Origin: an uncultured Acidobacteriota bacterium | Lineage (GTDB): Bacteria; Acidobacteriota; Terriglobia; Terriglobales; Acidobacteriaceae | NCBI GenBank assembly: GCA_903832055.1 | Contig: CAILAC010000016.1 | Coordinates: 806,001-870,000, forward strand | Reading direction: 5' to 3' | DNA length: 64,000 nt | Part shown: positions 45,600 through 64,000 of the stretch, piece after piece | Position numbering within the stretch: position 1 is the stretch's first letter | Layout: each line of letters begins with the position of its first letter | Program-made: the position numbers and the translations under genes | The notes under the pieces: generated by a model | What the model was told of the DNA's origin: nothing | Databases searched by the model: none | The model's input: the letters and a program-made list of their open reading frames with translations, nothing else

Positions 45600-45618
45600 T
45601 GGCGGAGAGAGGGGGATT
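45600..45618 (-). other. Attachment site: displaced 3' end of tRNA-Ser
   Basis: TGGCGGAGAGAGGGGGATT is, on the minus strand, the last 19 bases of a typical bacterial tRNA-Ser gene: end of the T loop, T stem, acceptor strand, discriminator and encoded CCA. The rest of the tRNA body is absent to the right, where integrase-associated sequence begins. This is what an element inserted at the 3' end of a tRNA leaves at its distal border. The intact gene is expected at the other end, beyond this window. Confidence 0.75.
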
Positions 45619-45635
45619 ATTCTTTTGCCCCTAGA

Positions 45636-45674
45636 AACCCAACAAATAGTGGGTTAGCTCGAATTTAGCTCGAA
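45636..45674. promoter_or_regulatory. Inverted and tandem repeats upstream of the integrase
   Basis: An inverted repeat AACCCA/TGGGTT (45636-45655) runs into two direct copies of TTAGCTCGAA (45654-45663 and 45665-45674) with an 11-base period, one helical turn. They lie between the attachment site and the integrase start, where integrase arm sites or an autoregulatory operator are expected. Confidence 0.45.
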
Positions 45675-45717
45675 AAAGGAGGCGGAATCCGGGTATTGGA
45701 GGCAAAGGAGAATTGAA

Positions 45718-46929
45718 GTGAACTCTACTCTTACCCTACTCCGCTACGCCCCTATCGAAGGTAAAAAAGGTTGGCGTCGGGGTGCCGTCGTACTCACCAA
45801 GAACGGCAAAATCAAACCCGAAGTGATGACCATTGGCGGTTTTGAAGTCCGCTGCACCAACGGTCGCTACCTTATGCGGCGGTACCAAGGCAAGCTTCCC
45901 GTCTATACAAAACTTGGCAAAGACCCCACAGACGCTCTCAACAGGTTCCGGGCTGAAGAAACCAAACTGAATGCACGGGCCACGGCGGAAGCCGCTGGAC
46001 TTGAGGTTGTTTCCGATGACAATAGCCGGAAGACCCTCAAGCAATACGCAGCCGACTTTCTCTCCATGCACCGCAGTCTTCCACATCGGTCGGACGACTC
46101 GGAGAGGGTCTACACGCAAATCACCAGCAGCTTTCTCACTGTCTGCAAGGCCAGCTACCCCGAGCAAGTGACCAAGGATGACGTCATCCGCTGGCACGGC
46201 TGGATGAGGGGACAGCAAGGGTACAGCGACAGGACTTGCTCGAATTACTACAAAAGCTTGCGGGGATTCCTCCGGTATTGCAAGCTAAACCCCGGCGAAA
46301 TCATCCCAACAGGCACCCACCGGCTCCTGCAAGCCTACACAAAGAAGACGCCCAACTCATACGAACCGGAGGTCGTCCAGAAACTCATCGACGCGAGTAC
46401 AGACCACAGTCTGCTCTGGGATTTCGCCTACAAGACTGGGCTCCGCGAGGGCGAGTTGATGATGCTTACCCGGTACGACCTTCGTTTGTCCGGCCTGAAG
46501 CCCCTTGTACACCTGAAGGAGCGCGATGGCCTCGGAACTATCAAAGACCTCGAAGAGCGTGGCGTCGAACTGCATCCCACGCTCATCCCCAAGCTGAAAG
46601 CATGGCTGGAAGCAAACCCCAAGAAGGTTTTACTGTTCGGCACGGATGGAGACAAGCAGGACAGGAAGATGCTTCGCGCTCTCAAGCGGGATGCGCGGCG
46701 TGCGGGCCTCAATTGCGGTCACTGCAAGGGCTGCTTGTCACGCAACGATGAATGTCGCGAGTTCACGCTGCATAGGTTTCGTCGTACTTATGTGACCCGG
46801 ATGCTGGTCGCCACCGGAGGCGATTTGAGTACGGTGATGAAGCAGAGCGGCCACTCGGACCTCAAAAGCGTGATGCGGTACCTCGCTCCAAAGAGCCAGC
46901 TAACATCCGCACTCGCACAGGCGTTCTGA
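45718..46929 (+). CDS. Tyrosine site-specific integrase
   Basis: 403 aa from the GTG at 45718, with GGAG about 7-8 bases upstream. A SAM-like N-terminal core-binding domain (about 105-195) precedes the catalytic domain with R243 (KTGLREGEL), H352-x-x-R355 (LHRFRRTYVT), H379 (SGHSD) and the nucleophile Y388 (VMRYLAP). Four Cys at 333, 336, 339 and 346 form a zinc-knuckle-like loop before the H-x-x-R box, a known variation in some integrases. It lies 100 bases from the tRNA-Ser remnant, which is its probable target. All catalytic residues are present. Confidence 0.95.
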   Translation: MNSTLTLLRYAPIEGKKGWRRGAVVLTKNGKIKPEVMTIGGFEVRCTNGRYLMRRYQGKLPVYTKLGKDPTDALNRFRAEETKLNARATAEAAGLEVVSDDNSRKTLKQYAADFLSMHRSLPHRSDDSERVYTQITSSFLTVCKASYPEQVTKDDVIRWHGWMRGQQGYSDRTCSNYYKSLRGFLRYCKLNPGEIIPTGTHRLLQAYTKKTPNSYEPEVVQKLIDASTDHSLLWDFAYKTGLREGELMMLTRYDLRLSGLKPLVHLKERDGLGTIKDLEERGVELHPTLIPKLKAWLEANPKKVLLFGTDGDKQDRKMLRALKRDARRAGLNCGHCKGCLSRNDECREFTLHRFRRTYVTRMLVATGGDLSTVMKQSGHSDLKSVMRYLAPKSQLTSALAQAF

Positions 46930-46954
46930 ATTTATCGTTTGGAAATTGGGTACA

Positions 46955-46979
46955 GAGCCCCGGTCACTGGCCGGGGCTC
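46955..46979. terminator. Bidirectional terminator between integrase and excisionase
   Basis: GAGCCCCGG and CCGGGGCTC form a perfect 9-bp stem with a 7-base loop. On the plus strand it is followed by CTAGTTTTT, a good T-tract for ending the integrase transcript. On the minus strand it directly follows the excisionase stop. Confidence 0.85.
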
Positions 46980-47180
46980 CTAGTTTTTGGTGTGCCTGTC
47001 GCGAAGCCACTGAGCAACATCGTGCGGGTCGAGGCGAATGCTGCCGCCGATGCGGTAAGCTGGCAGACGACCGGCGCTTATTGCCTTGTACAGGGTCTTT
47101 GGTGACGAGTTGAGTAAGGTACCAAGTTCATCTACGGTAAGAGCAGTCTCTCTATTCTCGATAGTCTCTATGATGTTCAT
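46980..47180 (-). CDS. Excisionase/AlpA-like HTH DNA-binding protein
   Basis: 66 aa from the ATG at 47180; the frame is open to an ATG at 47255. A winged-helix excisionase-family domain is visible: TVDELGTLLNSSPKTLYKAISAGRLPAYRIGGSIRLDPHDVAQWL (DELGTLLNSS helix, PAYRIGG wing, DVAQWL). Such proteins direct excision or regulate the integrase. It is convergent with the integrase and downstream of the replication gene. The roughly 290-base gap upstream holds three GTAC-centred repeats (about 47263, 47305 and 47321) that might be binding sites. Confidence 0.85.
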   Translation of the reverse strand: MNIIETIENRETALTVDELGTLLNSSPKTLYKAISAGRLPAYRIGGSIRLDPHDVAQWLRDRHTKN

Positions 47181-47474
47181 GTATTCGATTACTGCCTTTT
47201 TCGGAAAGGCCACTCTGCTGAAATTAACTCGTTGGAACCCGCTCTGAATCAGCATGTTAGGTGTACGGTCTAGTTCAAAGGTAAAGCATATTTCGCTTGA
47301 ATCTGTACACTACTCAACTTGTACCCTACCTCGTGCCGAGTTACCGATGTGGTCTTCACGGCGTCGAGACTAAGGTTCGGGCTTGGAAGTCGGCACGGTG
47401 CATCGCCTCAATCCACGGTCAAGGCCGAAGGTATGGTATGCCGTGCCGGGTCTACTATACCCAAGCTTCCTTTC

Positions 47475-49838
47475 CTACCTGACGGCAATCTTCAGAACCA
47501 CGAAAGGAGTCTTCGACTTCTTAGTTTTGCCCTTCTCGTCTTCCTCTTCTTCCATAAAGGATTCAATGATGCCGTTATCGACCATGGACTTCCTCACACG
47601 GTCGATGAGGCCAGAATACTTGCGGTAGTACGACTTGTTGTTCACGGTGTCACGGAAGTGAAGCAACATCCAAAGGTCGCTCTCCTTCACGCCAGAAATA
47701 AGTTTGGCACCCTTGTGATGAACGTTGTTGAGCTTCTGATAGTCGCGACGTTCCTTGAGGGCGGAATACACCGCTTCATAACACTCGGACTCTTTGCTCT
47801 CTGCCACGCCCGGCTTGTAGACCTCGCGGAGTCGCAACTGCCACTCAATGAAGCGGAACGCGGCCTCAAGACAAGGAGCGGTTACTTCGGCATCTCCGTT
47901 GCAAGCGGCAGCGACGAGTGCAATCCGGAGGGCGTGCTCAGAGAGCCGACGCCGCTCAGCATCGTCGGCAATCCACTCGTCCTTGGCGTCCCATACCCAG
48001 TCAGGGATGGCGACCGGCTTCAGGTTGTCGAAATGAACCTGTTTGAACCCACGGAGTGGACGCGCCTTCACGTATCCGTTGTGGTAGCCAAACATGAAGC
48101 GGTCAGCGAGACCGTGGACGGTGCTTGCACCAAACATCTTGGCAAACTCGGAACCGTCCTTGCACGCCAGTCCGCCAACTATCGACAACTTGGCGTACAC
48201 GACCTGACGGCCCTTTTTCACGCTGCCACCGTCTTCATCATCTTCCCAAAATGTGCAGAGCATGGGGGGCAGATTGGAGCCTTGAATAGCACAGGCGTTG
48301 AGCACGGTCTTCAGTTCATTTAGGAACAGGATGCGGGGCAGCGGTTCTTCTGTTGACAACTGGTTCATCAGGCCGGAGTGTGACCCCGGAGCATCCTTAA
48401 TGACGGTTCCCTCACCGGGCAGAAAAATGGATGCCTGAGCGGCTTTCATGCAGAAAGTTTTCCCTGTGCCCACGCCGCCAAGGAGGGCGCAGTACATGTT
48501 GCTGCGGACAAAATGGTCACGGTCTTCGATGTCCAGCGTGGAAGCGTAGGTGAGGATGGCCGGGTATAGCCAGCCGAGTGGCAGAGACTGCGGACAGTTG
48601 TTGGCTATCTCAGCCAACTTGCCGTACATGGCACACTGACCCGGAAAGTCCAGTCCGGTGTTCTTGTCAGGGTCAACGATGTTCACTCTGTCAGGGGTTG
48701 GGAGGTAGTCTTCTGGCTGGAGGGGCAAATCCCCATCGCGCTTCTGCTCAGCGACGAGCGAGTCAAGGTCAGCTTCCAAACCCCCGTCATAGCTCGGCTG
48801 TATTTTTACTGCTTCCTCCGGCTCGGCAACGACCTCCACAGGTTCATCGCCGTTGAGTATACGCATAACCTCATCAAAAGTGAGGATTCTGCCCTGCTTG
48901 TCACAAGTGTCGCTTTCTTCCTCGTCGTCAATAGTCTCTACGTCCCACTTGGGGTCAATACTCACGCCGTCATCGGCGGCTGACCAGATGGCACCACGGT
49001 ATGGTTCGCCACCGTCCTCAATCATCTTGGCGTTGAGGAAGGCGATGACCTGCCCCACGGTCATCGTTGAACCCTTGCAACCGCCAGCGAAGCAATGCCA
49101 GCCAAACACGCTTCCATCGTAGTAGAACCCTGTCTTGACGGACTGCTGATGCTTGTAACCGCAGACCGGGCAGATGTCGGTGATGAACCATGGTTCTTCC
49201 CAGTGACCACCGATATGGTAGTGCTCCATGGTGTCTTCGAAGTCGAAGTCTTCATGGACGGAGACGCATCCCTTCGGCTCGGGCTTGTCCTTCTCTCCAT
49301 GTGCGGCAACCCACTCCACAAGCCAGTCGGGGGCCTCGACGATTTCGGCATCATCAATGACGGTATAGACGAACCCGGTCGGATGCGTGGAGCCGGGTGC
49401 GATTACCTGTCGCCGGTCTACCTGAGCGTCGAACTCATAAGGCGAGGCATGAGCCTTCCGGTTTCCCATGGCACGCGAGGCCGGGGTCTGCTTCCAATAT
49501 TTATGCTCCCCTTTGCGGCTCCCTGCGGTGAAGGTGCGTGGAATCGTGTTGCCGGTCTCTGACTCAATCAAATTCCAGAGTTCACGGTTGTCAGCGTCCA
49601 GCATCCATTGACCGTCAGGTGTCGCGACGGCACCACAGTTAATGTCGTTACCGTACCGAGCAATCCAGCCACAGATGACATCAGGCTTGGTGCTGGCCTC
49701 GAACTGCCAGTTGTTTGGCAGCGGCTTCTTGTCCATGTAGCGAACGGGAATTACCGGAACCCCACGCCTGACCATCTGGACAGCAATCTTGTTGAACGGG
49801 AGGGGTGTTGCCGGTGATGTAACCACGTTGGTCGCCAT
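47475..49838 (-). CDS. Bifunctional primase-polymerase with AAA+ ATPase, replication protein
   Basis: 787 aa. The N-terminal prim-pol domain (about 15-190) has RGVPVIPVRYMDKKPL, the catalytic LDADN at 80-84, RKGEHKYW (His112) and VDRRQVIAPGSTHPTG. A zinc-binding module follows (CPVCGYKH about 223-230, WHCFAGGC about 247-254), then an acidic linker. The ATPase domain has Walker A GGVGTGKT (454-461) and Walker B-like ILFLNEL (503-509). The C-terminus is a DUF3987-like region with an Arg/Lys-rich end. It should prime and unwind the element's DNA. It starts 1 base after the small HTH gene and 390 bases from the iteron cluster. Confidence 0.88.
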   Translation of the reverse strand: MATNVVTSPATPLPFNKIAVQMVRRGVPVIPVRYMDKKPLPNNWQFEASTKPDVICGWIARYGNDINCGAVATPDGQWMLDADNRELWNLIESETGNTIPRTFTAGSRKGEHKYWKQTPASRAMGNRKAHASPYEFDAQVDRRQVIAPGSTHPTGFVYTVIDDAEIVEAPDWLVEWVAAHGEKDKPEPKGCVSVHEDFDFEDTMEHYHIGGHWEEPWFITDICPVCGYKHQQSVKTGFYYDGSVFGWHCFAGGCKGSTMTVGQVIAFLNAKMIEDGGEPYRGAIWSAADDGVSIDPKWDVETIDDEEESDTCDKQGRILTFDEVMRILNGDEPVEVVAEPEEAVKIQPSYDGGLEADLDSLVAEQKRDGDLPLQPEDYLPTPDRVNIVDPDKNTGLDFPGQCAMYGKLAEIANNCPQSLPLGWLYPAILTYASTLDIEDRDHFVRSNMYCALLGGVGTGKTFCMKAAQASIFLPGEGTVIKDAPGSHSGLMNQLSTEEPLPRILFLNELKTVLNACAIQGSNLPPMLCTFWEDDEDGGSVKKGRQVVYAKLSIVGGLACKDGSEFAKMFGASTVHGLADRFMFGYHNGYVKARPLRGFKQVHFDNLKPVAIPDWVWDAKDEWIADDAERRRLSEHALRIALVAAACNGDAEVTAPCLEAAFRFIEWQLRLREVYKPGVAESKESECYEAVYSALKERRDYQKLNNVHHKGAKLISGVKESDLWMLLHFRDTVNNKSYYRKYSGLIDRVRKSMVDNGIIESFMEEEEDEKGKTKKSKTPFVVLKIAVR

Positions 49839-49839
49839 A

Positions 49840-50046
49840 TTAGCTGGCCTCGGTCAGGTAGCGGGGCTTGCGACCAGTAGGGCGGCGGTGTGAAGCAGCC
49901 TTGGCAATGTTGCAGACCGTCTTGCGGCTGACCTGATACATCTCAGCCACCTGTTGATAAGTCAGAGCCGGTCTGGCCTGTATCGTATCTAGGATTGCGG
50001 CCCGAACCTGCCGCTTAAGTTCATACACGTCTAAGTTGCTAATCAT
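49840..50046 (-). CDS. Small HTH DNA-binding protein
   Basis: 68 aa. A Fis/resolvase-type helix-turn-helix (LTYQQVAEMYQVSRKTVCNI) is followed by a basic tail RRPTGRKPRY. It immediately precedes the primase gene (TAATATG junction) and borders the GACTGC repeat region, so it is a good candidate to bind those repeats and control replication-gene expression (inference). Confidence 0.75.
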   Translation of the reverse strand: MISNLDVYELKRQVRAAILDTIQARPALTYQQVAEMYQVSRKTVCNIAKAASHRRPTGRKPRYLTEAS

Positions 50047-50223
50047 AAGTTTTGCGTAGCGTCCTGTTCTTTAATACGGCGTTTTTTGGCACTGCTTACT
50101 CTAAAGGGGATGAAAGTTTACTTTTTGCACGCGCTGGAGTGTTTGAATTTAGCTTATCGCCGGTTGGATGATGTCGAGCATCGCCGGAAGAGGGTCGGGA
50201 CTTCGCCATGGAACTGTGCAGGG

Positions 50224-50498
50224 ACTGCCTCAGTCTGGTGATGACTGCAATTGACTGCTGGCAGTCACGGAGTTGACTGCACGGGCAGCGGGTTAAAGCG
50301 TAGCAGTCAAGAAGTCATATATACTCGCGCAAACTCCGAAAGACCCAATCAAGCCATTGATAAATATAGATATTTCTACTTCGTTTTAGTCGTTAATGAC
50401 TGCATTGCAGTCACTTGCAGTCAGGGTTCGACTGCAAGGTTCGATTCTCAAACTTCTCCTGAAATGTTCCCATGTACCCCACGAGCAACATGACTGCA
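50224..50498. repeat. Iteron-like GACTGC cluster, candidate replication origin
   Basis: Eleven copies of GACTGC or its complement occur in 275 bases: at 50224, 50244, 50254, 50262, 50276, 50304, 50399, 50408, 50418, 50431 and 50493. Two pairs form palindromes, TGACTGCTGGCAGTCA (50253-50268) and TGACTGCATTGCAGTCA (50398-50414). These flank an AT-rich stretch (about 50310-50397) that could melt. The layout is that of an iteron origin or a multi-site operator next to the replication genes. No gene is supported in the surrounding gap 50047-50708. Confidence 0.7.
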
Positions 50499-50708
50499 AG
50501 ACTCCCGATGGTCGCTGAACCGACGCGGACAGGAGGCGACTCTTGACATGGCCATCCACATGAGCGATGACCCGGCAGGGCAGATGTCTTGGCAAATTGC
50601 CGTTGAGCAGAGTGAATCTAGCACCCGGCAAAGAAAAACAACTTCGAAAATCTTTTACGTGGGCGTTCATGCACAAGCATGTGCAATTTAATTCGAGGAG
50701 CCGTTTCC

Positions 50709-51350
50709 ATGGAAGAGCAATTCACAGATTCATACCGAGCATTTCTCAGGTCAATGTGTAGCTACTGGGCACCGGGACAGGACGAGTATTTGAGCGGCGA
50801 GATTGTCCATCAGTGGTCGGTGAGACAGTCATTCCGCCGTGAGATGTCTGGCCAACAAGCGGAGGTTTTGAAGCGAGAATCAGTGCTCGGCGAACTGCTC
50901 TACCGAAAGAAGCGTGAATTGTGCAGACTTGGTAGGAACGGGCGCTGGTGTGCATGGCTGCGTCAACGGAAAATCCCACGTTCGACGGCGGACCGCCTAG
51001 TTCTTCAACACGCTGAATTTTTCAATTTGACAGATGAATTCCCACGTCGCGAACGTTCCGAGCCACTTGAGGCCAGCATCTCCCAAGCTGCTTACCGCAC
51101 CAGCGACAGGCTCGAAAACATGCTGAGGTCGCCTCAGGCACGGATAAAGTTCGTCCGCTGTCTCGGCGATTTACTGGGCTTCGATGTCGAATATGGCGAT
51201 ACGGATTCTGTTCGGCTCACTATACCTCCTCCGGTCGATGAAACCGCCACCACAGATTTCGAACCCAACATCATATGTGTAGGCGATGACGGAAAGATTA
51301 TCCCGGTGGACTATGAACTTCGGGACGAGGCGGAAGATTCCGTCTTGTAG
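50709..51350 (+). CDS. Hypothetical protein with HTH-like centre
   Basis: 213 aa from the ATG at 50709, which has GAGGAG about 8-10 bases upstream; the frame is open to 50679. The middle segment (LCRLGRNGRWCAWLRQRKIPRSTADRLVLQHAEFF in pieces: GRWCAWLRQRKI, PRSTADRLV) resembles the DUF3102/plasmid-partition style of HTH, where a host factor 'sees' a substrate before acting; the likeness is weak. The C-terminal part is acidic. It is the first plus-strand gene after the origin-like region. Confidence 0.65.
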   Translation: MEEQFTDSYRAFLRSMCSYWAPGQDEYLSGEIVHQWSVRQSFRREMSGQQAEVLKRESVLGELLYRKKRELCRLGRNGRWCAWLRQRKIPRSTADRLVLQHAEFFNLTDEFPRRERSEPLEASISQAAYRTSDRLENMLRSPQARIKFVRCLGDLLGFDVEYGDTDSVRLTIPPPVDETATTDFEPNIICVGDDGKIIPVDYELRDEAEDSVL

Positions 51351-52005: not shown

Positions 52006-52707
52006 CTATCCCCTTTTTTCAGGTTCTCTGCTACCCCGGCTGGCAACGTCCCGGCGTTGGCGGAGACGAAGGATTCGGTTCACAACGATGGGATTCCACT
52101 GCTCTGAATGGCGAGGCTTGTATCCGGCTGCATCCAGAGCTTCAGCAATAGCCAGATACGAGTGGCCCGTTTGCCGAAGTTGCTGCATCAGCAGAACTGC
52201 CTCGGGCTCACCTAAGTGGCTTCCAAATGGGTGCTGTCCTTCGCAGCGGCCATTCTTGGCCTTCTTGCGCTGCCTTGCTCCACGAAGCTTGCTGACAATC
52301 ATCGACTTCTCATACTGGGAAAAGGCTCCGAGGACTTGCCGCATCAGAACCCGGCTCGGGTCATCGCTGCAAAGGTCGGGCTCGGCCACCGACACGACTT
52401 CGTACCCGTTCCGCATCAGGTCGGCGATGATGGATTCCTGCACCATCAAGTCTCGTGCGAGTCTGTCCACCCGCTCCACGATGACGGTCTTCACGCCGTC
52501 GCCGTGCAAGGCTTCGATAAGGGCGGATAGCGCAGGTCTATGGTCGAGTTCTTTTGTGCCAGATACTCCACGCTCTTCGAAGGTCTGAACGACGTGGATG
52601 CCATTCGATTTCGCATACTGTTTGATGGCCTGATTCTGCCGGGGGAAACCGTCCCCACTGAGTTGACCTCTTCCACTGACACGAAGGTAAGCAAATGCTG
52701 TTTGCAT
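52006..52707 (-). CDS. Small serine recombinase (resolvase/invertase)
   Basis: 233 aa. The resolvase catalytic domain has the nucleophile Ser11 in AYLRVSGRGQ, then FEERGVSGTKELDHRPAL, VIVERVDRLARDL and the E-helix GAFSQYEKSMIVSKLRGAR. A short C-terminal HTH (LMQQLRQTGHSYLAIAEALDAAG) follows. It is complete and of resolvase/invertase size, not a large serine integrase. It may resolve element dimers or invert DNA. No classic RBS precedes the ATG at 52707. The gene at 52806 is divergent. Confidence 0.92.
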   Translation of the reverse strand: MQTAFAYLRVSGRGQLSGDGFPRQNQAIKQYAKSNGIHVVQTFEERGVSGTKELDHRPALSALIEALHGDGVKTVIVERVDRLARDLMVQESIIADLMRNGYEVVSVAEPDLCSDDPSRVLMRQVLGAFSQYEKSMIVSKLRGARQRKKAKNGRCEGQHPFGSHLGEPEAVLLMQQLRQTGHSYLAIAEALDAAGYKPRHSEQWNPIVVNRILRLRQRRDVASRGSREPEKRG

Positions 52708-52805
52708 ACTACTGGTATACGAACGCGGCAGCGTTTTTAGCTACCTTTTCTACAGAATAAGTATCAAGTGGCTGAAAATTTTATACTTAACCTCAGGACG
52801 TGCCC

Positions 52806-55381: not shown

Positions 55382-55538
55382 GCATCCATTGTGCTGCAAC
55401 CCGGCCCCCGACGCAAGCGGGGACTTCCGGGGCGCTCCACTCAGAGTTCCGGGCAACCGGGGTTGGGTGCAGGGTCGAGCATGAAGGTCAAAACGGACTT
55501 TGACCTCACAGGAGCTAGACTGTCCATAAGCCTCTCTC

Positions 55539-56807
55539 ATGAGAAATATCTTCGACCAGTACGACCAGCAGGAAAATCGGCTCACCCATGCCTTAACTTG
55601 TGCGTTGGATGCGGAGCCGAAACTCTTGGACAATTTCGTCAAATGGGTAACCGGAAAGAGTTCGCCGGCAAAGCGTCTCGCAATAGTCGAGCAAAACCTA
55701 CCCGGTGAGGAGAGCGTGGACGACGCGGATGAGGCACACCGCCGAGGACTTCCCGATGCGTGGATTCATGACGGCGAACAATGGTCGGTCATCGTTGAGA
55801 GCAAAATTGAGTCGCGACTAAACGCCGACCAACTCGAACGGCATCGTAGAACCGCTTATAGGCGCGGATTTCTGGACTGTCACGTCGTCGCGTTTGTTAC
55901 CGAACGACCCAAGTGGAATTGCCCAGACGCCACCGTATTGAGGTGGACAGACTTGTACTGCTGGCTGTTACAGCAGCACGGGTCAGAGTGGTCGCGGCGG
56001 GTGGCGCAATACATGGAAGTGTTGGAGGCAAAGCTCGTGGGCGAAGGATATTTGAAGAGCGGAACTCTAACGGTATTCGCTGGAGTGCCGTTTGACAAAG
56101 ACACTCCGTACAACTACTTCGAAGCCAAGCGAGTCCTTCGACTCGCCATGGACAAGCTTCGGGTACGCACCGACCTGCGTAAGGGACTACGAATTGATTC
56201 AACAGGCAGTGGGCGTCCGGCTATCACCGGCACGGGCAGCACCAGCGTCTGGGATTTTGTGCGCCTTAGCAGCGCAAAAGATGCAACTCAGTTCACAGAC
56301 TATCCTCACTTCACGTTGTCATTTGACCGGGGACAGGTATTAGCTCCTGTCATTATCCCCAACGCGATGAAAAGCGAGTTCCGAGCCAATCTCCTCGCGC
56401 TCGGGCCAGAGCGATTCGAAGGTGTCGTGTCCGAATGTCTGCGGGAATTTAGGACGTCGCTAGGCAAGGTTGCGGGTGCTACTCCATGGATGGAAGTTGT
56501 TCAACGCCGCTGGAACCGAGGTTTACGAGCCGAGCCCGTTATCGACGCACTGCTCCGGTTTGACCCTCGAACAGCAGCATTACGCGACGGCAAGAACGTT
56601 GGCTCCGTGAAGCAACAACGCGAATGGCTCCGCACAGCTTATGAAGTCATCGCCAAGAGGCGCTCAAATATACAACTGGCTTTCGGCGCGACGTTCCCAT
56701 ATGACAGGTGTCCGATAGTGCGAACGCCTGAAATCTTAGACCACATTGCAAATGCTTGGCTCTCCTGCAAACCGCTCTTAGATGCAATCATGTCATCACA
56801 TAACTAG
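55539..56807 (+). CDS. PD-(D/E)XK nuclease-like protein
   Basis: 422 aa. The N-terminus IFDQYDQQENRLTHALTCAL is typical of one PD-(D/E)XK family. The core is D73 (LPDAWIHDG), then E87-x-K89 (VIVESKI), followed by Q98 in NADQLERH. The C-terminal 300 residues are of unknown fold. It may be a stand-alone defence nuclease. It is divergent from the Mom fusion and convergent with the gene at 56864-57556. Confidence 0.72.
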   Translation: MRNIFDQYDQQENRLTHALTCALDAEPKLLDNFVKWVTGKSSPAKRLAIVEQNLPGEESVDDADEAHRRGLPDAWIHDGEQWSVIVESKIESRLNADQLERHRRTAYRRGFLDCHVVAFVTERPKWNCPDATVLRWTDLYCWLLQQHGSEWSRRVAQYMEVLEAKLVGEGYLKSGTLTVFAGVPFDKDTPYNYFEAKRVLRLAMDKLRVRTDLRKGLRIDSTGSGRPAITGTGSTSVWDFVRLSSAKDATQFTDYPHFTLSFDRGQVLAPVIIPNAMKSEFRANLLALGPERFEGVVSECLREFRTSLGKVAGATPWMEVVQRRWNRGLRAEPVIDALLRFDPRTAALRDGKNVGSVKQQREWLRTAYEVIAKRRSNIQLAFGATFPYDRCPIVRTPEILDHIANAWLSCKPLLDAIMSSHN

Positions 56808-56863: not shown

Positions 56864-57556
56864 TCACTCCTTGAATGCTCGAAGCCGTTGCCCCATGTCT
56901 TTCCAGAACTCGCTGGTGATGCCTCTCGATACCGGGTGCGGTGTCATCGCCGCCACGGTTCCTATTTCCGCTATCCAGTGGAGTCCGTCAGCCCCGAACT
57001 TGCCACGGGCAATTTGTTCCCATTCCCCTCGCTGGCCGCTCCCATACATGACAATGAATTTCGGGCGATGAAGCCGTGCCTCTTTCCAAATGCGGTCAAC
57101 TCGCCGGGACAGGAAGCTGAGGCGGTCTCGCTCCACTCCCATGCTCGGAGCCGGGAGGCCCGAGAGTTCAATGACACAGGTCTCGCCATTTATCCGTCCC
57201 CAACGGTCTCGTTGATACGCTCGGATGTCATCGAGCGTGGGGTTCATTCCTTTGTATGCCAGCAGCAGACGAATCAATTGCCGCCATGTCGCTTGCATAG
57301 GCGGGTGTGACTGATGCCATTTGGTCATGCCGAATCCAAGGTGATGTTCGGAGCAGTCCACGACAGTACCACCGCCGAGGCGCTGCCATGATTTGAAGCG
57401 TGCCGCGATGCTGTCGATGCTGTCCTTGCCCATACCCGCTTCGGGGCCGACGAACCAGAATGGTGCGTCCCATCTGCCATAGCCAAAGAAGTGCTCGGCC
57501 ATGTGAACAGTGTCGCATGTGCCGAGTTCGCTTTGCTTAAGGACGGCATCACTCAT
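56864..57556 (-). CDS. Hypothetical protein, weakly uracil-DNA-glycosylase-like
   Basis: 230 aa. It opens with FGYGRWDAPFWFVGPEAGMG, which resembles the LVGxxPG motif of UDG-superfamily folds, and closes with MTPHPVSRGITSEFW, which resembles their HPS motif. The resemblance is weak and the catalytic residues are not secure. Its ATG overlaps the TGA of the Zn-ribbon nuclease gene (ATGA), so it is the last member of the Mrr operon. Confidence 0.6.
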   Translation of the reverse strand: MSDAVLKQSELGTCDTVHMAEHFFGYGRWDAPFWFVGPEAGMGKDSIDSIAARFKSWQRLGGGTVVDCSEHHLGFGMTKWHQSHPPMQATWRQLIRLLLAYKGMNPTLDDIRAYQRDRWGRINGETCVIELSGLPAPSMGVERDRLSFLSRRVDRIWKEARLHRPKFIVMYGSGQRGEWEQIARGKFGADGLHWIAEIGTVAAMTPHPVSRGITSEFWKDMGQRLRAFKE

Positions 57557-58485
57557 GGCTGCTCAACCAGCACCGGCATCATGCCGGGTAGTTTATCGTC
57601 CAAGTATTCCTTGAACCACAAAGGCCATTCTGATGGATTGCACTCGCTCAGGAAATCCCTCCATGTGGTAATTCGATAATTCCCCTTCAGGTAATTCAGT
57701 CCAGAGCGGAACTGTCTAATCTGGTTTGGTTCCTTATTCTTAATCATGAGATTTACGAGCGTGAATGGTCTGCCTTCTGCCAGTTCGACTCCGATGCGCC
57801 AGTTACGTGTAAGCTCGTACAACTCGGCATGACGGATTAGTTCAAGCTCAGTGAATGCATCCGTATCAGATAAGTATTTCTCGTGTTTTTCTCCAAACTT
57901 CTGCTGGTCATTACCCGAGCGATACTTGACCTCTACAATAATCAAACCATCGTCCGCGAAATCGAGGATGACATCGGGCTCAGAACGGCGACGTGGCTTC
58001 TCGCCCAGCCGGTCGCATATTTCAATGACTCGCGTTCGAATGGGTCCGCCACGAACCGAAGCCGCAGGGTGTGGGACTCCCCAAAGCAACATGGCCGGTT
58101 CATCCACGTTGTCTTGTACAAATCCACAGCCTCGTACGATTCTGCCGAGTTGACCGCTTGCGTGCAGGAATGAGAACACTGTCCATGTAAGCGCATCTTC
58201 AGAACTGCTGAAGCCAAACTTCAGCTTCTTGTTTGCCCTGTTGTCTTCGTTTAGTGCATTGACAAGCGCATCTTCGGCACCCGGCATGACCTCGGGGGGA
58301 ATATTGTCGAGAGAATTGCGATGGATTCTCGTCTGGCTGTGACGGCCATTTGAGAACCCAATTCCACAGGCGTCACATCTGCGGAGGCAGTCTTCAAAGC
58401 ATGTTGCTTGGGTCGGGTACCCCGTCCGTGGATGAAGTTCAGCCGCACAGCGCGGACAAACCAAAGGATTCAAAGGAACGTTCAT
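57553..58485 (-). CDS. Zinc-ribbon plus PD-(D/E)XK nuclease-like protein
   Basis: 310 aa. The N-terminus has a Cys4 zinc ribbon (C10, C13, C37, C40: CPRC and CDAC). The centre has EPDVILDFADDG (D171) and VEVKYRSG (E185-x-K187), a complete PD-(D/E)XK core. The C-terminus is helical. It starts 45 bases after the Mrr stop and overlaps the next gene, so the three are probably one operon. A nucleic-acid-binding nuclease is likely; specificity is unknown. Confidence 0.72.
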   Translation of the reverse strand: MNVPLNPLVCPRCAAELHPRTGYPTQATCFEDCLRRCDACGIGFSNGRHSQTRIHRNSLDNIPPEVMPGAEDALVNALNEDNRANKKLKFGFSSSEDALTWTVFSFLHASGQLGRIVRGCGFVQDNVDEPAMLLWGVPHPAASVRGGPIRTRVIEICDRLGEKPRRRSEPDVILDFADDGLIIVEVKYRSGNDQQKFGEKHEKYLSDTDAFTELELIRHAELYELTRNWRIGVELAEGRPFTLVNLMIKNKEPNQIRQFRSGLNYLKGNYRITTWRDFLSECNPSEWPLWFKEYLDDKLPGMMPVLVEQP

Positions 58486-58530: not shown

Positions 58531-59463
58531 TTATCCGTTTGTGCCACCCTCATCCTCGAAGAAGTCTGAGTCAATATGCTTTACAACGTACGTGCTCTCG
58601 GTGGAAACGCCCACCCCATAATCGAACATGAGTTCTGCAAGTTGTAGTCCGTCAATAAGAATGACTTTGAAGTCGAGACCAGCGGCATATTCTTCTGCGT
58701 CTTTTGTGAAGGACGAAGTGGTCAGGAAAATGCCCTTACGCGCCCTCTTGCCGTGTAGAGCCCCAACAAACTTCTGAATCTCAGGACGGCCAACCGAGGC
58801 ACTATCCCACCGCTTGGCCTGAATATAAATCTGTTCGAGGCCGAGTTTGTCCTCTTTGATTACGCCGTCGATGCCGCCGTCGCCGGACTTCCCAATCGCT
58901 TTCCCTGCGTCGGCCAATGAGCCACCGTATCCGATTGCGGTTACCAGTTTTACAACAAGCCGCTCGAAGAACTCGGGAGAGCAGGACTTGACCTTCGCCA
59001 GTACGTCTTGCTCAATTTGCCTCCGGCGATTCAGGTAGCCGGTCGCCATCAGGTCATCCGGAGAATCCGTTTCAGCCGCCGACTCATTGGTGCCGTTCTC
59101 TTCGGCTGCTGCCGGTCTAGCCGGTCTTTGGAATTCAATGAACTCAGGAAATCTGCTCAGATAGGCAACGTCGATGCGCTCCGGGTTCTCAGCCAAGACC
59201 TTGATGCCCCGTTCGGTGATTCGGAACTGGCCGCGTTGAACGTAGTCGATGAGGAGAGCCTTCTTGAGGTAGGTACGTGCCCAGCCAACACGATTGTCGA
59301 AGACCTCCTGCTTACCGCTTGGAAGGAGTTCCTTGCGCTCCGCCTCGGACACGCCAAACTGGACGGCAAGTTCATTTACCGTGTCCCGCTTGGTATGCAC
59401 TTTGCCGTCCCCGGCGACCTTCAGCAACGGCAGCATCAATGTCTGGTAGTCCGGTATCGGCAT
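58531..59463 (-). CDS. Mrr-family type IV restriction endonuclease
   Basis: 310 aa. An Mrr_N-like winged-helix domain (about 1-95: PLLKVAGDGKVHT, ERKELLPSGKQEVFDNRVGWA in part, RGQFRITERG) precedes the Mrr catalytic domain (about 160-280). The latter has GKSGDGGIDGVI (D199) and IYIQAKRW (Q215-x-K217), the QxK form of the PD-(D/E)XK core, then VGRPEIQKFVGAL. It is complete and of normal length. Mrr enzymes cut modified DNA. It is the first gene of an operon with a second nuclease-like gene and the 230-aa protein, and divergent from the methyltransferase operon. Confidence 0.93.
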   Translation of the reverse strand: MPIPDYQTLMLPLLKVAGDGKVHTKRDTVNELAVQFGVSEAERKELLPSGKQEVFDNRVGWARTYLKKALLIDYVQRGQFRITERGIKVLAENPERIDVAYLSRFPEFIEFQRPARPAAAEENGTNESAAETDSPDDLMATGYLNRRRQIEQDVLAKVKSCSPEFFERLVVKLVTAIGYGGSLADAGKAIGKSGDGGIDGVIKEDKLGLEQIYIQAKRWDSASVGRPEIQKFVGALHGKRARKGIFLTTSSFTKDAEEYAAGLDFKVILIDGLQLAELMFDYGVGVSTESTYVVKHIDSDFFEDEGGTNG

Positions 59464-59878
59464 CGTTTCCTTGCATTGAGGACATCAGGTCTGCCGTCGA
59501 GCGGAGTCAGACGCTCGAATAGCTACACAAGCCGCATCCTCAAGATGTGGCACTTGGTTCCCACAGTGAACGGTTGGAATTGATTATTGCTCTTGGGTTT
59601 CCCCCTGTCCATCACGGCAAAGGCCGCCATCTCATCCCACGCCAACCTGAGCAATCTAGCGAATTCAATGACTTCCAAGCGCACGTTGACCGAGGCTACG
59701 CGCAAGACTAGGCTAGGAGGTTAAGAATCCATCACTTACGGGCACGGCGGGGAATCTGGTCGCAGCCGCCAAGTCCAATAAGCAGTGGGCAGTGGGGTGC
59801 CGTCTGTGGCACCCGGTTTGACCGTCCTCGGATGGAAGCCATTTCAAGTCCGCCAGTCGAACCGGGAGGGATGTACCG
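59464..59878. promoter_or_regulatory. Divergent intergenic region between the two restriction-type operons
   Basis: 415 bases between mrr (minus) and the methyltransferase gene (plus). It contains a hairpin GGGTGCC/GGCACCC with a 6-base loop at 59795-59814, about 65 bases upstream of the methyltransferase start, and GGGAGGG 8 bases before its TTG. No convincing gene or consensus promoter was seen in the rest. Control of both operons from here is expected. Confidence 0.4.
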
Positions 59879-62665
59879 TTGAACGCCGTTGAAATTGAAG
59901 AGGAAGTTTCGAAACTGGCTGAGAAGCCATTTGACCCGGAGAACTTCCCCTACGCCTTTCTCGAAGCCTTCGGCAACAAGGAGACGACCATCAAGCGTCT
60001 CCGTGCCGGGGCGTCCAACAAATCCGACCTGGGCGGCGTGCTCCAGACCAACAATATCCACATTGATACTTGCAACCCCGGCGACGTGACCCGGACGCTG
60101 ACCGCACTGCGGGAGAGCCCTGCCACCGTCAAAGCCAAGGCGAAGTTCATTCTTGCCACTGATGGTGTGGATTTTGAAGCCGAGGAGTTGACCAACGGTG
60201 AGACGGTCGCCTGTGCCTACAAGGACTTTCCTGACCACTTCGGCTTCTTTCTGGCGCTGGCTGGAATCTCCACGGTGCGGCAAATCGCGGAGAACTCCTT
60301 CGACATCCGGGCGACGAGTCGGCTGAACCGGCTCTACCTTGAACTGCGGAAGGACAACCGCGACTGGGAAACCGGCGACCGCCGCCACGACATGAACCAC
60401 TTCATGGCGCGGCTCATCTTCTGTTTCTTTGCCGAGGACACCGGCATCTTCAACAGCGACCTGTTCACCGGCACGGTCGAGCAGATGTGTGACCGGGACT
60501 CCTCGAACACCCACGATGTAATTCGTACGCTCTTCCTTGCCATGAACACCAAGGCGGAAGACAGAGATGCGGCCAACATCCCCCGGTGGGCTATCGGCTT
60601 CCCCTACGTGAACGGTGGCCTGTTCTCTGGCAATCTACAAGTGCCCCGTTTCAGCAAGATGGCACGGTCTTACCTGCTGCACATCGGCAATCTGGACTGG
60701 CGAAAAATCAACCCTGACATCTTTGGTTCGATGATTCAGGCCGTGGCCGAGGACGCAGCCGACGATGACCGCCGCCAACTGGGTATGCACTACACCAGCG
60801 TGCCCAACATCCTCAAGGTGCTCAACCCGCTCTTCCTCGATGACCTGAGGGCAAAGTTGGATGAGGCTGGCGACAACCCTCGTATGCTCTTGAACCTGCG
60901 GAGCCGAATGGCACGCATCCGAGTGTTCGACCCGGCTTGCGGCTCGGGGAACTTCCTAGTCATCGCCTACAAAGAGATGCGTGCCATCGAAGCGAAAATT
61001 AACGAGCGGCGTGGAGAGTTGGAAAAACGCTCGGTCATTCCCAAGACCAATTTCCGTGGCATCGAGATTCGTGATTTCCCGGCTGAAGTGGCACGGCTTG
61101 CACTTGTCATCGCCGAGTACCAGTGCGATGTGCTCTATCGTGGGCACGCATTGGCACTCGCGGAGTTCTTGCCGCTGGACAGGCAGAACTGGATTACCTG
61201 CGGCAACGCGCTAGACCTAGACTGGTTAAGCGTCTGTCCCTCGACAGGAACTGCTGTGACATTCCGAGCCGACAATTTGTTTGGCATCCCTGAAGAACAA
61301 GCAGAGATTGATTTTGAGAACGAAGGCGGTGAAACCTTCATCTGTGGGAATCCACCGTACCTCGGCTCAACGTGGCAATCTGAAGAACAAAAAACTGACC
61401 TCTCTGGAATCTTCAGAAGTCGCACTAGCAACTGGAAGTCCCTTGACTATGTAACCGGGTGGTTCATGAAGGCGGCAGACTATGGAACAAGAACCAACGC
61501 TGTCGCTGCCTTCGTGGCCACCAATTCCATTTGTCAGGGACAACAAGTTCCGATTCTCTGGCCGCTCATATTTTCCACAGGCCACGAAATCGCCTTCGCG
61601 CATACCTCATTCAAGTGGGCCAACTTGGCAAGCCACAACGCAGGAGTCACTGTCGTGATTGTTGGGATTTCCAACCACCCAAGCAGGTTGCGTCGTCTTT
61701 TTTCAGTTGGCGAAGAATCGAACGTCATTGTCAAAGACGTCGAGAATATCAGTGCCTATTTGACAGCGGGTGAGACTGTAATGGTTAAGAAGGCTTCGAA
61801 ACCACTCACGACCGTTTCCGAAATGACATTCGGTAGCAAGCCTGTGGATGGTGGCAATCTCCTTCTCTCTCGACCCGAATTGGAGTCTCTTGGATTAAAC
61901 AGGGGCGACTACGAAAAATACATCAGGCCGATTTTTGGCTCCGATGAATTCATTGGAGGGGTACAGCGATTTTGCATTTGGGTCGACGACAAAGATGCCG
62001 CCGACGCGGCAGTACATCCCGTAATCGGCCCAAGACTTCAGGGTGTTCGGGCAATGAGACTGGCAAGCACAAAAATCGCAACACAAAAAGGCGCATCAAA
62101 ACCACACAGGTTTGATGAGCGACGGCAATCTGGCAACGAAGCAGTCATTGCCATTGCAGCCATTAGTTCAGAGAATCGCGATTACCTCCCGTGCGGAATA
62201 CTGCAAAAGGGCACCATCATATCGAATAAATGTTTCGCACTGTTCGACTCCCCTCTCTGGAACATGGCCTTAGTCGCATCGCGACTTCATTGGGTTTGGA
62301 TAGCCACCGTTTGCGTGCGTCTGGAAATGCGGTTTTCATATTCGAACACGCTTGGTTGGAACACATTCCCGGTTCCACTACTGACGGAGAAGAACAAGGC
62401 TGACCTCACCCGCTGTGCTGAAGACATCCTCTTGGCTCGGGAAGCACACTTCCCGGCGACGATTGCCGACCTCTACGAACCAGACAACATGCCCGAGGAC
62501 TTGCGCCACGCCCATGAGCGCAACGATGAAGTTCTGGAACGTATCTACATCGGTCGCCGGTTCAAGAACGATACCGAGCGATTGGAAAAACTCTTTGAAC
62601 TTTACACAAAGATGGTCGCCTCGGCGGGATTGGTCAACAGGAGAAAAGGGGAAATAGGAGAATGA
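59879..62665 (+). CDS. MmeI-type class I adenine-specific DNA methyltransferase
   Basis: 928 aa from the TTG at 59879 (GGGAGGG, 8-base spacing). The N-terminus (about 1-140: KSDLGGVLQTNNIHI, AKFILATDGVDFEAEEL) corresponds to the MmeI N-terminal region but has no (E/D)xK nuclease motif. A helical spacer (LIFCFFAEDTGIF) precedes the methylase with SAM motif FDPACGSGNFL (350-360) and NPPY (491-494), diagnostic of N6-adenine methylation. Target-recognition and MmeI_C-like regions follow (RLEMRFSYSNTLGWNTFPVP, LYEPDNMPEDLRHAHERND). It is methylation-only; cleavage would need a partner, probably the helicase gene downstream. Its TGA overlaps the next ATG. Confidence 0.9.
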   Translation: MNAVEIEEEVSKLAEKPFDPENFPYAFLEAFGNKETTIKRLRAGASNKSDLGGVLQTNNIHIDTCNPGDVTRTLTALRESPATVKAKAKFILATDGVDFEAEELTNGETVACAYKDFPDHFGFFLALAGISTVRQIAENSFDIRATSRLNRLYLELRKDNRDWETGDRRHDMNHFMARLIFCFFAEDTGIFNSDLFTGTVEQMCDRDSSNTHDVIRTLFLAMNTKAEDRDAANIPRWAIGFPYVNGGLFSGNLQVPRFSKMARSYLLHIGNLDWRKINPDIFGSMIQAVAEDAADDDRRQLGMHYTSVPNILKVLNPLFLDDLRAKLDEAGDNPRMLLNLRSRMARIRVFDPACGSGNFLVIAYKEMRAIEAKINERRGELEKRSVIPKTNFRGIEIRDFPAEVARLALVIAEYQCDVLYRGHALALAEFLPLDRQNWITCGNALDLDWLSVCPSTGTAVTFRADNLFGIPEEQAEIDFENEGGETFICGNPPYLGSTWQSEEQKTDLSGIFRSRTSNWKSLDYVTGWFMKAADYGTRTNAVAAFVATNSICQGQQVPILWPLIFSTGHEIAFAHTSFKWANLASHNAGVTVVIVGISNHPSRLRRLFSVGEESNVIVKDVENISAYLTAGETVMVKKASKPLTTVSEMTFGSKPVDGGNLLLSRPELESLGLNRGDYEKYIRPIFGSDEFIGGVQRFCIWVDDKDAADAAVHPVIGPRLQGVRAMRLASTKIATQKGASKPHRFDERRQSGNEAVIAIAAISSENRDYLPCGILQKGTIISNKCFALFDSPLWNMALVASRLHWVWIATVCVRLEMRFSYSNTLGWNTFPVPLLTEKNKADLTRCAEDILLAREAHFPATIADLYEPDNMPEDLRHAHERNDEVLERIYIGRRFKNDTERLEKLFELYTKMVASAGLVNRRKGEIGE

Positions 62666-63057
62666 GCATTGTGATTTGGCCGTCATTCTTTCCATCGGAG
62701 TGCCCACCTACAGAGGCTGAAAATGCATCTGTCGAGGTATTTAGAATCGTTTCATTCGACCCACCAGCAGCGTGCGATTTTCAATCTTTCGCGCAAACTC
62801 ACCCCAAGAAATATCAGGGCAAGTGCAAGCCTTCCGGGCTTTCGGTATTCACGGGGATGGAGGATGCACTGAAGTATCTGAGAAGAGTGCAGGGTGAGGC
62901 TCAGGGCGTAGTTCCAAGGCGTCTTATCGCACGTGCACTGCTTTCACCACAGGCTGGAAAAATTCAGCATACTCCGAGCGCCTCGCACAATTCGCACCAT
63001 ACATGGTGGGCACCAGATGGTTTCGACCACGCCGCGACATTTAAGGTGGTGACATAG
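62662..63057 (+). CDS. Hypothetical protein between methyltransferase and helicase
   Basis: 131 aa. The ATG overlaps the methyltransferase stop (ATGA) and its TAG overlaps the GTG of the helicase (TAGTG), so it is embedded in a coupled operon. The sequence has many Pro, His and Ser residues (SPQAGKIQHTPSASHNSHHTWW) and no recognised motif. Its position suggests a small subunit or regulator of the methyltransferase/helicase system. Confidence 0.65.
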   Translation: MSIVIWPSFFPSECPPTEAENASVEVFRIVSFDPPAACDFQSFAQTHPKKYQGKCKPSGLSVFTGMEDALKYLRRVQGEAQGVVPRRLIARALLSPQAGKIQHTPSASHNSHHTWWAPDGFDHAATFKVVT

Positions 63058-64000
63058 TGGAACTGTTTACGGAAGGAACGACCCTCGGAGCATTGAAGGT
63101 ACTCGAAGTCTACGAGTACTATGACGGCCCGCGTCTCTTCGCGTCGTTGAATGAACGACGTTCGATTTTCCTTGTACTTTGGACTAGATTCAGAGGCACC
63201 AGCGACGAATACTATGTCCAACCACTGTCGATTCAGCGACTCCGAGAACTGCGTGAGGGCGTGATAAGTCTCCGCGAGGCTTTCAGCCAAGACACCGGGC
63301 TCGTCGTTCTGGAGATTGACCGCGAGTCTGGCACGGCGAGTACCCGAAGTCTGAAAACTGGCCAAATGGAAATATCGCTACTTCCCTTGCAAGGTGAAGC
63401 ACTGAACTTGACCTCACCCTTACCAATGGCTGAATTGAAAATACAAATCCCCTCTGTTTCCGTAACCTACGCCCACAATGGCAGTTCAACCCGCTCCAAT
63501 GCTTTCGGCATGAGGCCGATGCAGGAGCGGGTCTACGAGAAGCGTGGAGAGCAGTACTTGATTATCAAGTCACCGCCAGCATCGGGAAAAAGTAGAGCCT
63601 TGATGTTCGTTGCCCTCGACAAGCTTGAGCATCAGGGCATCAAACAAGCCATCATTGTGGTGCCAGAACGTTCCATCGGCGCGAGTTTCAATGACGAGCC
63701 GCTTTCACAGTTCGGCTTTTGGGCTGACTGGCATGTTGAACCCAAGTGGAACCTGTGCAACGCTCCGGGCGGTGGGAACGGCGGCATGGTCAATGCTGTA
63801 GGCGCGTTTCTTGAGAGCACAGCCAAGCTTCTGGTCTGCACACATGCGACGTTCCGCTTCGCCGTCAATGAATATGGCGTGGAGAAGTTCGATGACCGTC
63901 TGATTGCCGTGGATGAGTTCCATCATGTCGCCGCAAACGAGGGCAACATCCTTGGCAGGTATCTCAGCCAGTTCATCGCCCGGAACCGAGTACACATTGT
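63057..64000 (+). CDS. DEAD/DEAH helicase with N-terminal extension (3' end outside window)
   Basis: At least 314 aa, open to the window end. Residues 1-110 form a separate domain (MELFTEGTTLGALKVLEVYE, LFASLNERRSIFLVLW), similar in style to DUF6575. A superfamily 2 helicase follows with Walker A PPASGKS (about 173-179), VVPERSIGASF, VCTHATFRF and the DEFH box (286-289). Such helicases are commonly encoded beside this methyltransferase type and may carry the translocase or nuclease of a restriction system. The GTG start overlaps the preceding TAG by one base. Nuclease motifs, if any, lie beyond the window. Confidence 0.85.
   Translation, partial: MELFTEGTTLGALKVLEVYEYYDGPRLFASLNERRSIFLVLWTRFRGTSDEYYVQPLSIQRLRELREGVISLREAFSQDTGLVVLEIDRESGTASTRSLKTGQMEISLLPLQGEALNLTSPLPMAELKIQIPSVSVTYAHNGSSTRSNAFGMRPMQERVYEKRGEQYLIIKSPPASGKSRALMFVALDKLEHQGIKQAIIVVPERSIGASFNDEPLSQFGFWADWHVEPKWNLCNAPGGGNGGMVNAVGAFLESTAKLLVCTHATFRFAVNEYGVEKFDDRLIAVDEFHHVAANEGNILGRYLSQFIARNRVHI

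Follow-up and report, generated by a model that had tools for sequence, protein, structure and literature searches.

Genomic islands that occupy tRNA and tmRNA genes have been mapped in Islander (PMC4383910). For the kinds of cargo considered here, the DnmA–YeeB–YeeC (YeeABC) cluster has been described for Bacillus subtilis and its relatives in two papers (PMC7261158, PMC9973331), one of which cites the cluster as affecting phage sensitivity in Vibrio crassostreae (PMC9973331). PD-T4-10 is an abortive toxin–antitoxin defence system in which B is the toxin (PMC9519451), and Brig1-type enzymes are DNA glycosylases that act in defence (PMC11078745). Here we analyse a 64,000-nucleotide stretch of the genome of an uncultured Acidobacteriota bacterium (hereafter the window; assembly GCA_903832055.1, contig CAILAC010000016.1, G000:C16:806001–870000 in our numbering; 4.57 Mb in 18 contigs), together with 19 kb on its right side that reach beyond it (C16:865001–884000, examined as L011). 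We conclude, with a probability of about 0.85, that a tRNA-Ser(GCU) gene here houses a site-specific integrative element about 25.5 kb long, with a mobility and replication half and a half that carries predicted defence cargo. The island itself is of a known kind; the new part is an accessory slot in its DnmA–YeeB–YeeC operon and the toxin–helicase fusion found there.

The ends of the element are settled by a core repeat, an intact tRNA gene and arm repeats. A 21-bp exact direct repeat, delimited by base-by-base extension, lies at window positions 45598–45618 and at C16:877055–877075 (window-equivalent 71055–71075), where an intact tRNA-Ser(GCU) gene on the minus strand carries the matching 21 bp (C16:877057–877149, L011:12057–12149; tRNA-Ser(gct) by ARAGORN). 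From left core to right core the element measures 25,457 bp, and it extends about 7 kb past the window edge. The tRNA 3′-end pattern has exactly two exact copies in the whole genome, at C16:851600 (window 45600) and C16:877057, and five further sites with one or two mismatches, three of which are the ends of other tRNA-Ser genes. Just inside each core stand two copies of TTAGCTCGA, with all four copies oriented alike and spaced by 11 bp at the left end and by 10 bp at the right, and the 78-kb stretch formed by the window and the right region holds no further copy. Shuffled sequence gave a mean of 0.24 copies for the window (at least two in 3 of 100 shuffles) and of 0.08 for the 19-kb right region (two reached in 1 of 200). 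In an excised circle these copies would flank the core on both sides, which would correspond to an arm-type integrase site. In addition, the sequence that borders the left core on its outer side (window 45514–45618) shares 77% similarity, a terminator-like hairpin included, with the stretch that follows a tRNA-Ser 3′ end at a contig break (C2:1–115), where C3 finishes in tRNA-Ser(CGA) and C2 begins with a tRNA-Ser 3′ end.

Next, the tRNA-Ser(GCU) region was compared in 10 of 14 congeners, and 18 element proteins were searched there. All ten regions contain an intact tRNA-Ser(GCU), and the element is beside the tRNA in none of them; of the flank in question, one region (L032) covers no more than about 0.9 kb. 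Nine of the ten gave no match to any of the 18 proteins; the sole match in the tenth (L038) was a weak one to 94 residues of the integrase (E=1.5e-4). The element thus shows the features of a tRNA-gene integrative island: an intact tRNA with a displaced 3′ fragment, an internal tyrosine integrase near one end (its gene starts about 100 bp from the left core), and absence from the site in the relatives read. The initial annotation, which had seen the left tRNA fragment and proposed an integrative element, is borne out on this point by these results. The intact tRNA-Ser(GCU) and direct repeat that it suggested seeking to the right were found (C16:877055–877149), and the outcome that it named as contrary, a region syntenic and fixed in all relatives without a second attachment site, is not what was seen, since a second site is present and the element is missing beside this tRNA in ten congeners. 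Judged from these sequences, the tRNA-Ser(GCU) site is probably an insertion hotspot. Still other genes adjoin the tRNA in the three congener regions with open reading frames (ORFs) listed (L030, L031 and L033).

Two side observations concern the same site. A 202-aa integrase-like gene without a catalytic-domain match lies beside the tRNA in L033 (G009), and in G001 a second tRNA-Ser(GCU) fragment (L030:13630–13685) stands 12 kb from the intact gene in an island-like arrangement, with no integrase recognised by eye among the ORFs listed.

All parts named in the initial annotation are present (Table 1): the tRNA-Ser 3′ fragment, integrase, AlpA-like gene, primase–polymerase (Prim-Pol), iteron cluster, serine recombinase, Mom, nuclease, Mrr and the methyltransferase/helicase operon. 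The putative origin contains 11 GACTGC/GCAGTC sites in 275 bp, whereas no other 300-bp stretch of the 78 kb has more than 2, a density above chance for a word picked after the cluster had been noticed; six of the seven window copies of TGACTGCA also lie inside 50223–50497. The cluster resembles an iteron origin, from which replication may start. An own replicon is therefore a fair reading of Prim-Pol and iterons together, and replication as such remains a prediction. Partial Prim-Pol matches, spanning only about 140–185 residues, occur in 6 of 296 other genomes, and neither integrase nor Prim-Pol has a relative in IMG/VR. The same genome holds a second weak Prim-Pol match in a 182-aa open frame (G000:C16:330391–330825).

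Pfam and PHROG scans of the main element proteins, which took in the small ORFs only in part, recognised no relaxase, secretion or conjugation, terminase or capsid gene, in agreement with the earlier statement that no structural or conjugation gene is visible. In particular, the Pfam-scanned main proteins include no relaxase or type IV secretion gene of an integrative and conjugative element, and no capsid-size, decoration or packaging gene of a P4-like satellite was recognised; part of the small ORFs lay outside both scans, and no search for cos was made. The satellite-like or mobilisable character proposed earlier thereby gained neither support nor contradiction. Towards the right of the element, an N-terminally extended DUF488 protein stands beside a 290-aa protein matching phrog_25907 (1.8e-59; L011:8698–10381), and a dual-specificity phosphatase gene lies near the right end (L011:11006–11413).

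The methyltransferase/helicase operon noted earlier is indeed present and is the known DnmA–YeeB–YeeC cluster, here with an unusual toxin–antitoxin-like insert; its family composition suggests a restriction or defence role. A superfamily 2 (SF2) helicase and then a T5orf172/GIY-YIG gene follow dnmA in DnmA–YeeB–YeeC order, YeeC having a T5orf172/MUG113 domain. The operon proteins are 59–78% identical to aligned plasmid operons, and the YeeB part is 73–81% identical to YeeB of the four plasmid records first aligned and 45–79% to the IMG/VR loci. In the DnmA-like protein ExK is absent from residues 1–140, as in three plasmid relatives, and the alignment to MmeI (5hr4) begins at MmeI residue 108; the Pfam MmeI_N domain overall still matches (2.4e-33).

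Between dnmA and yeeB lies a PD-T4-10A-like gene, identified with a PADLOC model for which no curated cut-off is shown. It is intact and overlaps by 1 bp the start of an 807-aa frame whose residues 1–81 match PF20215/DUF6575 (2.7e-17) and residues 21–105 match PD-T4-10_B (0.0011), and which continues as YeeB. The four plasmid YeeB proteins (681–686 aa) begin near fusion residues 123–127. The fused toxin piece is therefore about 81–122 residues long, or roughly the first third of the toxin (profile length 353); the matches cover its N-terminal part, and a complete toxin B is lacking. The fusion was seen outside this island in none of the searches made, in IMG/VR, among the listed plasmid records or in the genome contigs. 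In IMG/VR the YeeB match never starts before residue 107 (fusion in 0 of 23 relatives). Among 60 plasmid records listed of 265 there was no fusion: 59 matches start at residue 109 or later, and the other is a DUF6575-like match alone. A query with the antitoxin and toxin N-terminus against the genome contig collection, which reaches close relatives only, returned 29 pattern matches and no relative. The fusion N-terminus matched six plasmid records (five annotated DUF6575 proteins and one unannotated), and three plasmid records hold neighbouring A-like and B-like matches, without YeeB there as far as listed.

Gaps between the operon genes were then surveyed in 40 other operons, comprising 23 IMG/VR loci and 17 plasmid records chosen by organism rather than at random, 13 of the 17 after the idea of a slot had arisen. 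Gap lengths were read off where the element's own proteins align and are approximate. At dnmA–yeeB, 13 of the 33 loci where this gap was informative (all except L119, L120, L121, L124, L131, L142 and L145) have an insert of 200 nt or more; at yeeB–yeeC none of 40 does, the largest gap being 134 nt. The contents vary: RhuM (L130) and, by eye, a RhuM remnant (L127); a DUF1016/YhcG PD-(D/E)XK nuclease in L132 and L133, the latter assigned without a scan of its own from coordinates and identities identical to those of L132; a CoiA-like protein (L123); proteins without family of 135–137 aa (L052, L122, L139), of 260 aa (L137) and of 294 aa, the last next to an ATP-binding protein (L140, L141); a RelE/ParE toxin–antitoxin pair (L143); and 203 nt without an assigned gene (L134). 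Where dnmA falls outside the stretch, Mrr (L124), a SoFic C-terminus (L121) and a PDDEXK gene (L145) stand upstream of yeeB. The survey includes near duplicates (L132/L133, L140/L141 and L128/L129/L135) and the similar-sized inserts of L052, L122 and L139. With loci that depend in part on one another and plasmid records chosen by hand, the contrast between the two junctions is suggestive and is given without a statistic. No description of such a slot was found in the titles and abstract openings of the literature consulted, and one may already be in print.

A second part of the cargo is the operon of Mrr, a REase-ARP-type nuclease and a 230-aa protein, three genes in the same direction, the last two overlapping by 4 bp. 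Mrr has both Mrr_N and Mrr_cat. For the 230-aa protein, scans of Pfam, NCBIfam, PADLOC and PHROG gave no match, IMG/VR and the plasmids no relative, and a PDB sequence search nothing useful. It was modelled with AlphaFold (AF2) from its own sequence and 16 of 21 genome-contig relatives, five short, frameshifted or distant ones being omitted, with a predicted local distance difference test (pLDDT) score of 88.7. The top Foldseek matches are thymine-DNA glycosylase (best E 6.9e-05, TM-scores about 0.45–0.56). A second structure comparison ranked a family 4 uracil-DNA glycosylase (UDG), 4zby, first with a Z of 9.4 over 155 residues at 3.6 Å, by a tool in which a top Z of 7 to 8 often arises in the absence of any true relative; each of the 50 rows listed is a UDG-superfamily chain. 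GxExG-like and TxHP-like stretches are conserved in the 17-sequence alignment of the family, compared without superposing active sites. The structure matches point to a UDG-superfamily fold in the model, and fold alone is no proof of activity. Brig1 belongs to the UDG superfamily.

Relatives of the glycosylase-fold protein lie, by eye, mostly among ordinary chromosomal genes. The 24 stretches that hold them gave no match to the other 17 of the 18 element proteins, which means that the combination of glycosylase and two-nuclease operon was seen only here; REase-ARP has no relative in 286 other genomes. Accordingly, the idea of a conserved Mrr/REase-ARP/glycosylase operon is not supported by relatives. 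Seen separately, L093–L113 form an unannotated UDG-superfamily family from Acidobacteria, Eremiobacterota, Verrucomicrobia and a small number of other assemblies; judged by eye, most of its members stand alone in the chromosome.

The Mom domain scores 86.6 bits against a curated cut-off of 27.1, and the protein matches the solved Mom chain 8bv8 by sequence with E=0.0061. Mom exceeds the cut-off in 5 of 396 genomes of the phylum, its own genome counted; it has no relative in IMG/VR and one distant relative on plasmids. Terminase homologues adjoin Mom in five of the six over-cut-off places outside this genome (L064, L065, L066, L091 and L092), HTH_17 and a Prim-Pol lie near it in L065, and relatives of both lie near it in L092. 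Other probable mobile elements of the phylum thus have Mom as well. These five loci look like satellite-like elements in which Mom stands beside a split terminase, with one gene for the ATPase and one for the RNase H-like nuclease, and one genome (G400) has three Mom places above the cut-off. The divergent gene next to mom was called PD-(D/E)XK in the initial annotation, a putative assignment based on a PD...ESK motif seen by eye in it and in its distant relative (25–29% identity) and on a weak, below-cut-off Pfam match (E=0.29). This nuclease has no relative in IMG/VR or on plasmids, and a PDB sequence search gave nothing useful. Its relatives occur in 2 of 286 other genomes (one short with an internal stop), neither stretch having a Mom relative, and in none of seven other Mom-match stretches (L064–L068, L091 and L092; 18 element proteins searched). 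A Mom–nuclease restriction–modification pair was considered and dropped, having no support and no linkage elsewhere. The protein families support a defence cargo, as proposed earlier, to the extent that families predict function.

Table 1 Features of the element in the window (window coordinates; C16 coordinates where a feature or its partner lies beyond)
Feature	Position	Strand	Basis
Left attachment core, 21-bp copy of tRNA-Ser(GCU) 3′ end	45598..45618	+	exact repeat
Two arm-type repeats TTAGCTCGA	45654..45673	+	partner pair at C16:876917-876935, inside right end
Tyrosine integrase	45718..46929	+	PF00589 E=2.7e-15; phrog_1 5.3e-38
AlpA/excisionase-like helix–turn–helix (HTH) protein, HTH_17	46980..47255	-	PF12728 3.6e-13; PHROG excisionase families
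Putative replication protein: primase-polymerase, ATPase-like in its C-terminal part	47475..49838	-	PF09250 1.1e-21; PHROG DNA primase 3e-15
Small HTH-like ORF, 68 aa, between Prim-Pol and iterons	49840..50046	-	by eye
Iteron-like cluster, 11 GACTGC/GCAGTC sites, putative origin	50223..50497	.	site count
223-aa protein, no significant family in profile scans	50679..51350	+	Pfam, PHROG scans
Serine recombinase, resolvase/invertase type	52006..52707	-	PF00239 6.1e-32
DUF5677 protein	52800..53690	+	PF18928 1.3e-13
Mom-like DNA modification protein, 518 aa from MNVGL start, N-terminal extension	53828..55384 (end about)	-	PF25680 2.4e-24; phrog_1384 2e-35
Putative PD-(D/E)XK nuclease, divergent from mom	55539..56807	+	weak PF14281 E=0.29 (below cut-off); full-length distant relative
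UDG-fold protein (predicted), 230 aa, last gene of Mrr operon	56864..57556	-	AlphaFold, Foldseek, structure comparison
REase-ARP-type nuclease, N-terminal Cys-rich part	57553..58485	-	PF22558 2.6e-07
Mrr-type restriction endonuclease, type IV family	58531..59463	-	PF04471 2e-37, PF14338 4.1e-32; PADLOC mREase_IV 3.2e-85
DnmA/YeeA-like adenine methyltransferase, MmeI family, without recognisable N-terminal nuclease motif	59879..62665	+	Pfam; MmeI alignment
PD-T4-10A-like (antitoxin-like) protein, 131 aa, in dnmA–yeeB slot	62662..63057	+	PADLOC PD-T4-10_A 1.4e-05, residues 13-129
PD-T4-10B/DUF6575-like N-terminus fused in frame to YeeB, 807 aa	63057..64000, on to C16:871480	+	PF20215, PADLOC

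The co-occurrence of integrase, AlpA-like HTH and Prim-Pol would also suit a satellite of the P4 or phage-inducible chromosomal island (PICI) type, which helper infection excises, Prim-Pol replicates and helper capsids package, its cargo guarding the host against competing phages. The Mom genes of the same phylum that stand in primase/split-terminase elements, most of them next to terminase homologues and two with HTH_17 and Prim-Pol or their relatives (L065, L092), fit such an origin, but it is unlikely: terminase, capsid-size and packaging genes were not recognised in the proteins scanned, no helper is known, and 25 kb exceeds the typical size of P4-like satellites. Doubtful, too, is a mobilisable or once plasmid-borne island that replicates like a plasmid once excised and depends on a conjugative helper for its transport; Prim-Pol and iterons are replicon-like, and 166 of 265 plasmid records with YeeB relatives are typed as conjugative (118) or mobilizable (48), yet no relaxase was recognised among the scanned proteins. 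The core proteins without close relatives, and an excision that is predicted with no circle observed, would fit loss of mobility in a tRNA-linked defence island, with the integrase half a relic and selection acting on the cargo only. We consider this improbable, given that the integrase, HTH and Prim-Pol frames are intact and that the two cores and four arm repeats are all preserved, where neutral decay would be expected to erode them. The reading as an integrative element has its own weak points. In congener G011 the chromosome of window 16478–32237 ends only about 134 bp short of the tRNA, so that the present genome has, relative to G011, the element plus an extra 13.4 kb. This segment left of the element (32237–45597) is also absent at the tRNA in G011; the left flank is therefore not plain shared chromosome, and more than one event is possible in its history. 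As the core genes lack close relatives (Prim-Pol with partial matches in 6 of 296 genomes, integrase and Prim-Pol with none in IMG/VR), a recently active element family is not demonstrated. Neither an excised circle nor transcription nor activity was observed, and the B. subtilis cluster is reported to have affected neither plasmid uptake or transformation nor any of the phages tried (PMC7261158, PMC9973331). The extra segment itself, inserted here or lost in G011, contains RND-type efflux genes (Pfam) and, by eye, dehydrogenase-like and transporter-like genes. A second tandem element within it was considered and rejected, with no second core and a best non-self match of 17 of 25 positions (30 kb to 64 kb).

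For the insert, we give about even odds to functionless debris, left when a toxin–antitoxin pair entered the slot and what remained of it was fused to yeeB by a deletion. The shortness of the toxin piece (about 81–122 residues against a profile of 353) argues for this, as does the rarity of the fusion (0 of 23 IMG/VR YeeB loci, none among 60 plasmid records listed of 265, no genome-contig relative), whereas a frame open across 807 codons, an intact antitoxin-like gene with a 1-bp overlap and a remaining YeeB that is 73–81% identical to the four plasmid proteins first aligned speak against it. A more speculative proposal, which we hold less likely than not, is that dnmA–yeeB is a general docking slot of this restriction family for exchangeable back-up modules, and that the toxin N-terminus–YeeB fusion, held by the antitoxin, makes this operon a restriction machine with a built-in abortive switch. 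The modules may then be nucleases, toxin–antitoxin pairs, RhuM-like and perhaps Fic-like proteins, by analogy with the type I restriction loci that carry PrrC or RloC.

On the integrative-element reading, the integrase would act on the 21-bp core, which in the circle lies between TTAGCTCGA arm sites, and recombine it with the tRNA-Ser(GCU) 3′ end. Such recombination would restore the tRNA at one end and leave the 21-bp copy at the other, the end structure that is seen. Circular excision would probably be governed by the AlpA-like protein, and Prim-Pol would probably copy the circle from the GACTGC iterons; movement between cells may use borrowed transfer or packaging, or DNA uptake. The cargo half may be a stack of DNA-directed defences: judged by family, the DnmA-like enzyme would mark DNA, the YeeB helicase and YeeC GIY-YIG nuclease would attack unmarked DNA, and Mrr, REase-ARP and the glycosylase-fold enzyme would attack modified DNA. 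Mom may shield element or host DNA through adenine modification, and the PD-T4-10-like antitoxin with the YeeB-fused toxin N-terminus might conceivably add a lethal backup once the helicase complex is engaged or blocked.

Finally, the locus can be set against the described systems. With Islander islands it shares a tyrosine integrase, a tRNA restored at one end and a displaced 3′ fragment at the other (PMC4383910); it differs in having arm repeats of its own sequence and unrelated cargo. Integrase, AlpA-like HTH and primase are also shared with P4-like satellites, in which the primase is of alpha-type architecture rather than a Prim-Pol, and the island proteins scanned include no recognised gene for packaging or capsid remodelling. 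Its Mom matches the family of phage Mu Mom (PF25680) over the curated cut-off, with an extra N-terminal region and in an island without recognised phage structural genes. Apart from the accessory slot with its toxin–helicase fusion and the glycosylase–nuclease operon, which are the parts worth following, the island is a well-bounded element of a known type. As with Brig1-type defence (PMC11078745), a DNA glycosylase or glycosylase fold occurs in a putative defence setting; the island protein, likened by its setting, differs in sitting in an operon with two restriction nucleases, a candidate for glycosylase-assisted attack on modified phage DNA by an unannotated UDG-superfamily protein. An A-like antitoxin gene followed immediately by a DUF6575 frame is common to the island and to PD-T4-10 (PMC9519451), and here the toxin is cut to its N-terminal part and continues as the YeeB helicase. 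Two points are directly testable, namely the toxin/nuclease slot in DnmA–YeeB–YeeC and the UDG-superfamily protein beside two nucleases. The DnmA–YeeB–YeeC cluster is widespread and its role unsettled, and a variable toxin/nuclease slot would suggest that part of the defence lies in the passenger. The island shares with the B. subtilis cluster an MmeI-like methyltransferase without a nuclease motif, an SF2 helicase, a T5orf172/GIY-YIG nuclease, the gene order and a mobile setting, and adds to it a PD-T4-10A-like gene and a helicase-fused toxin N-terminus between dnmA and yeeB.

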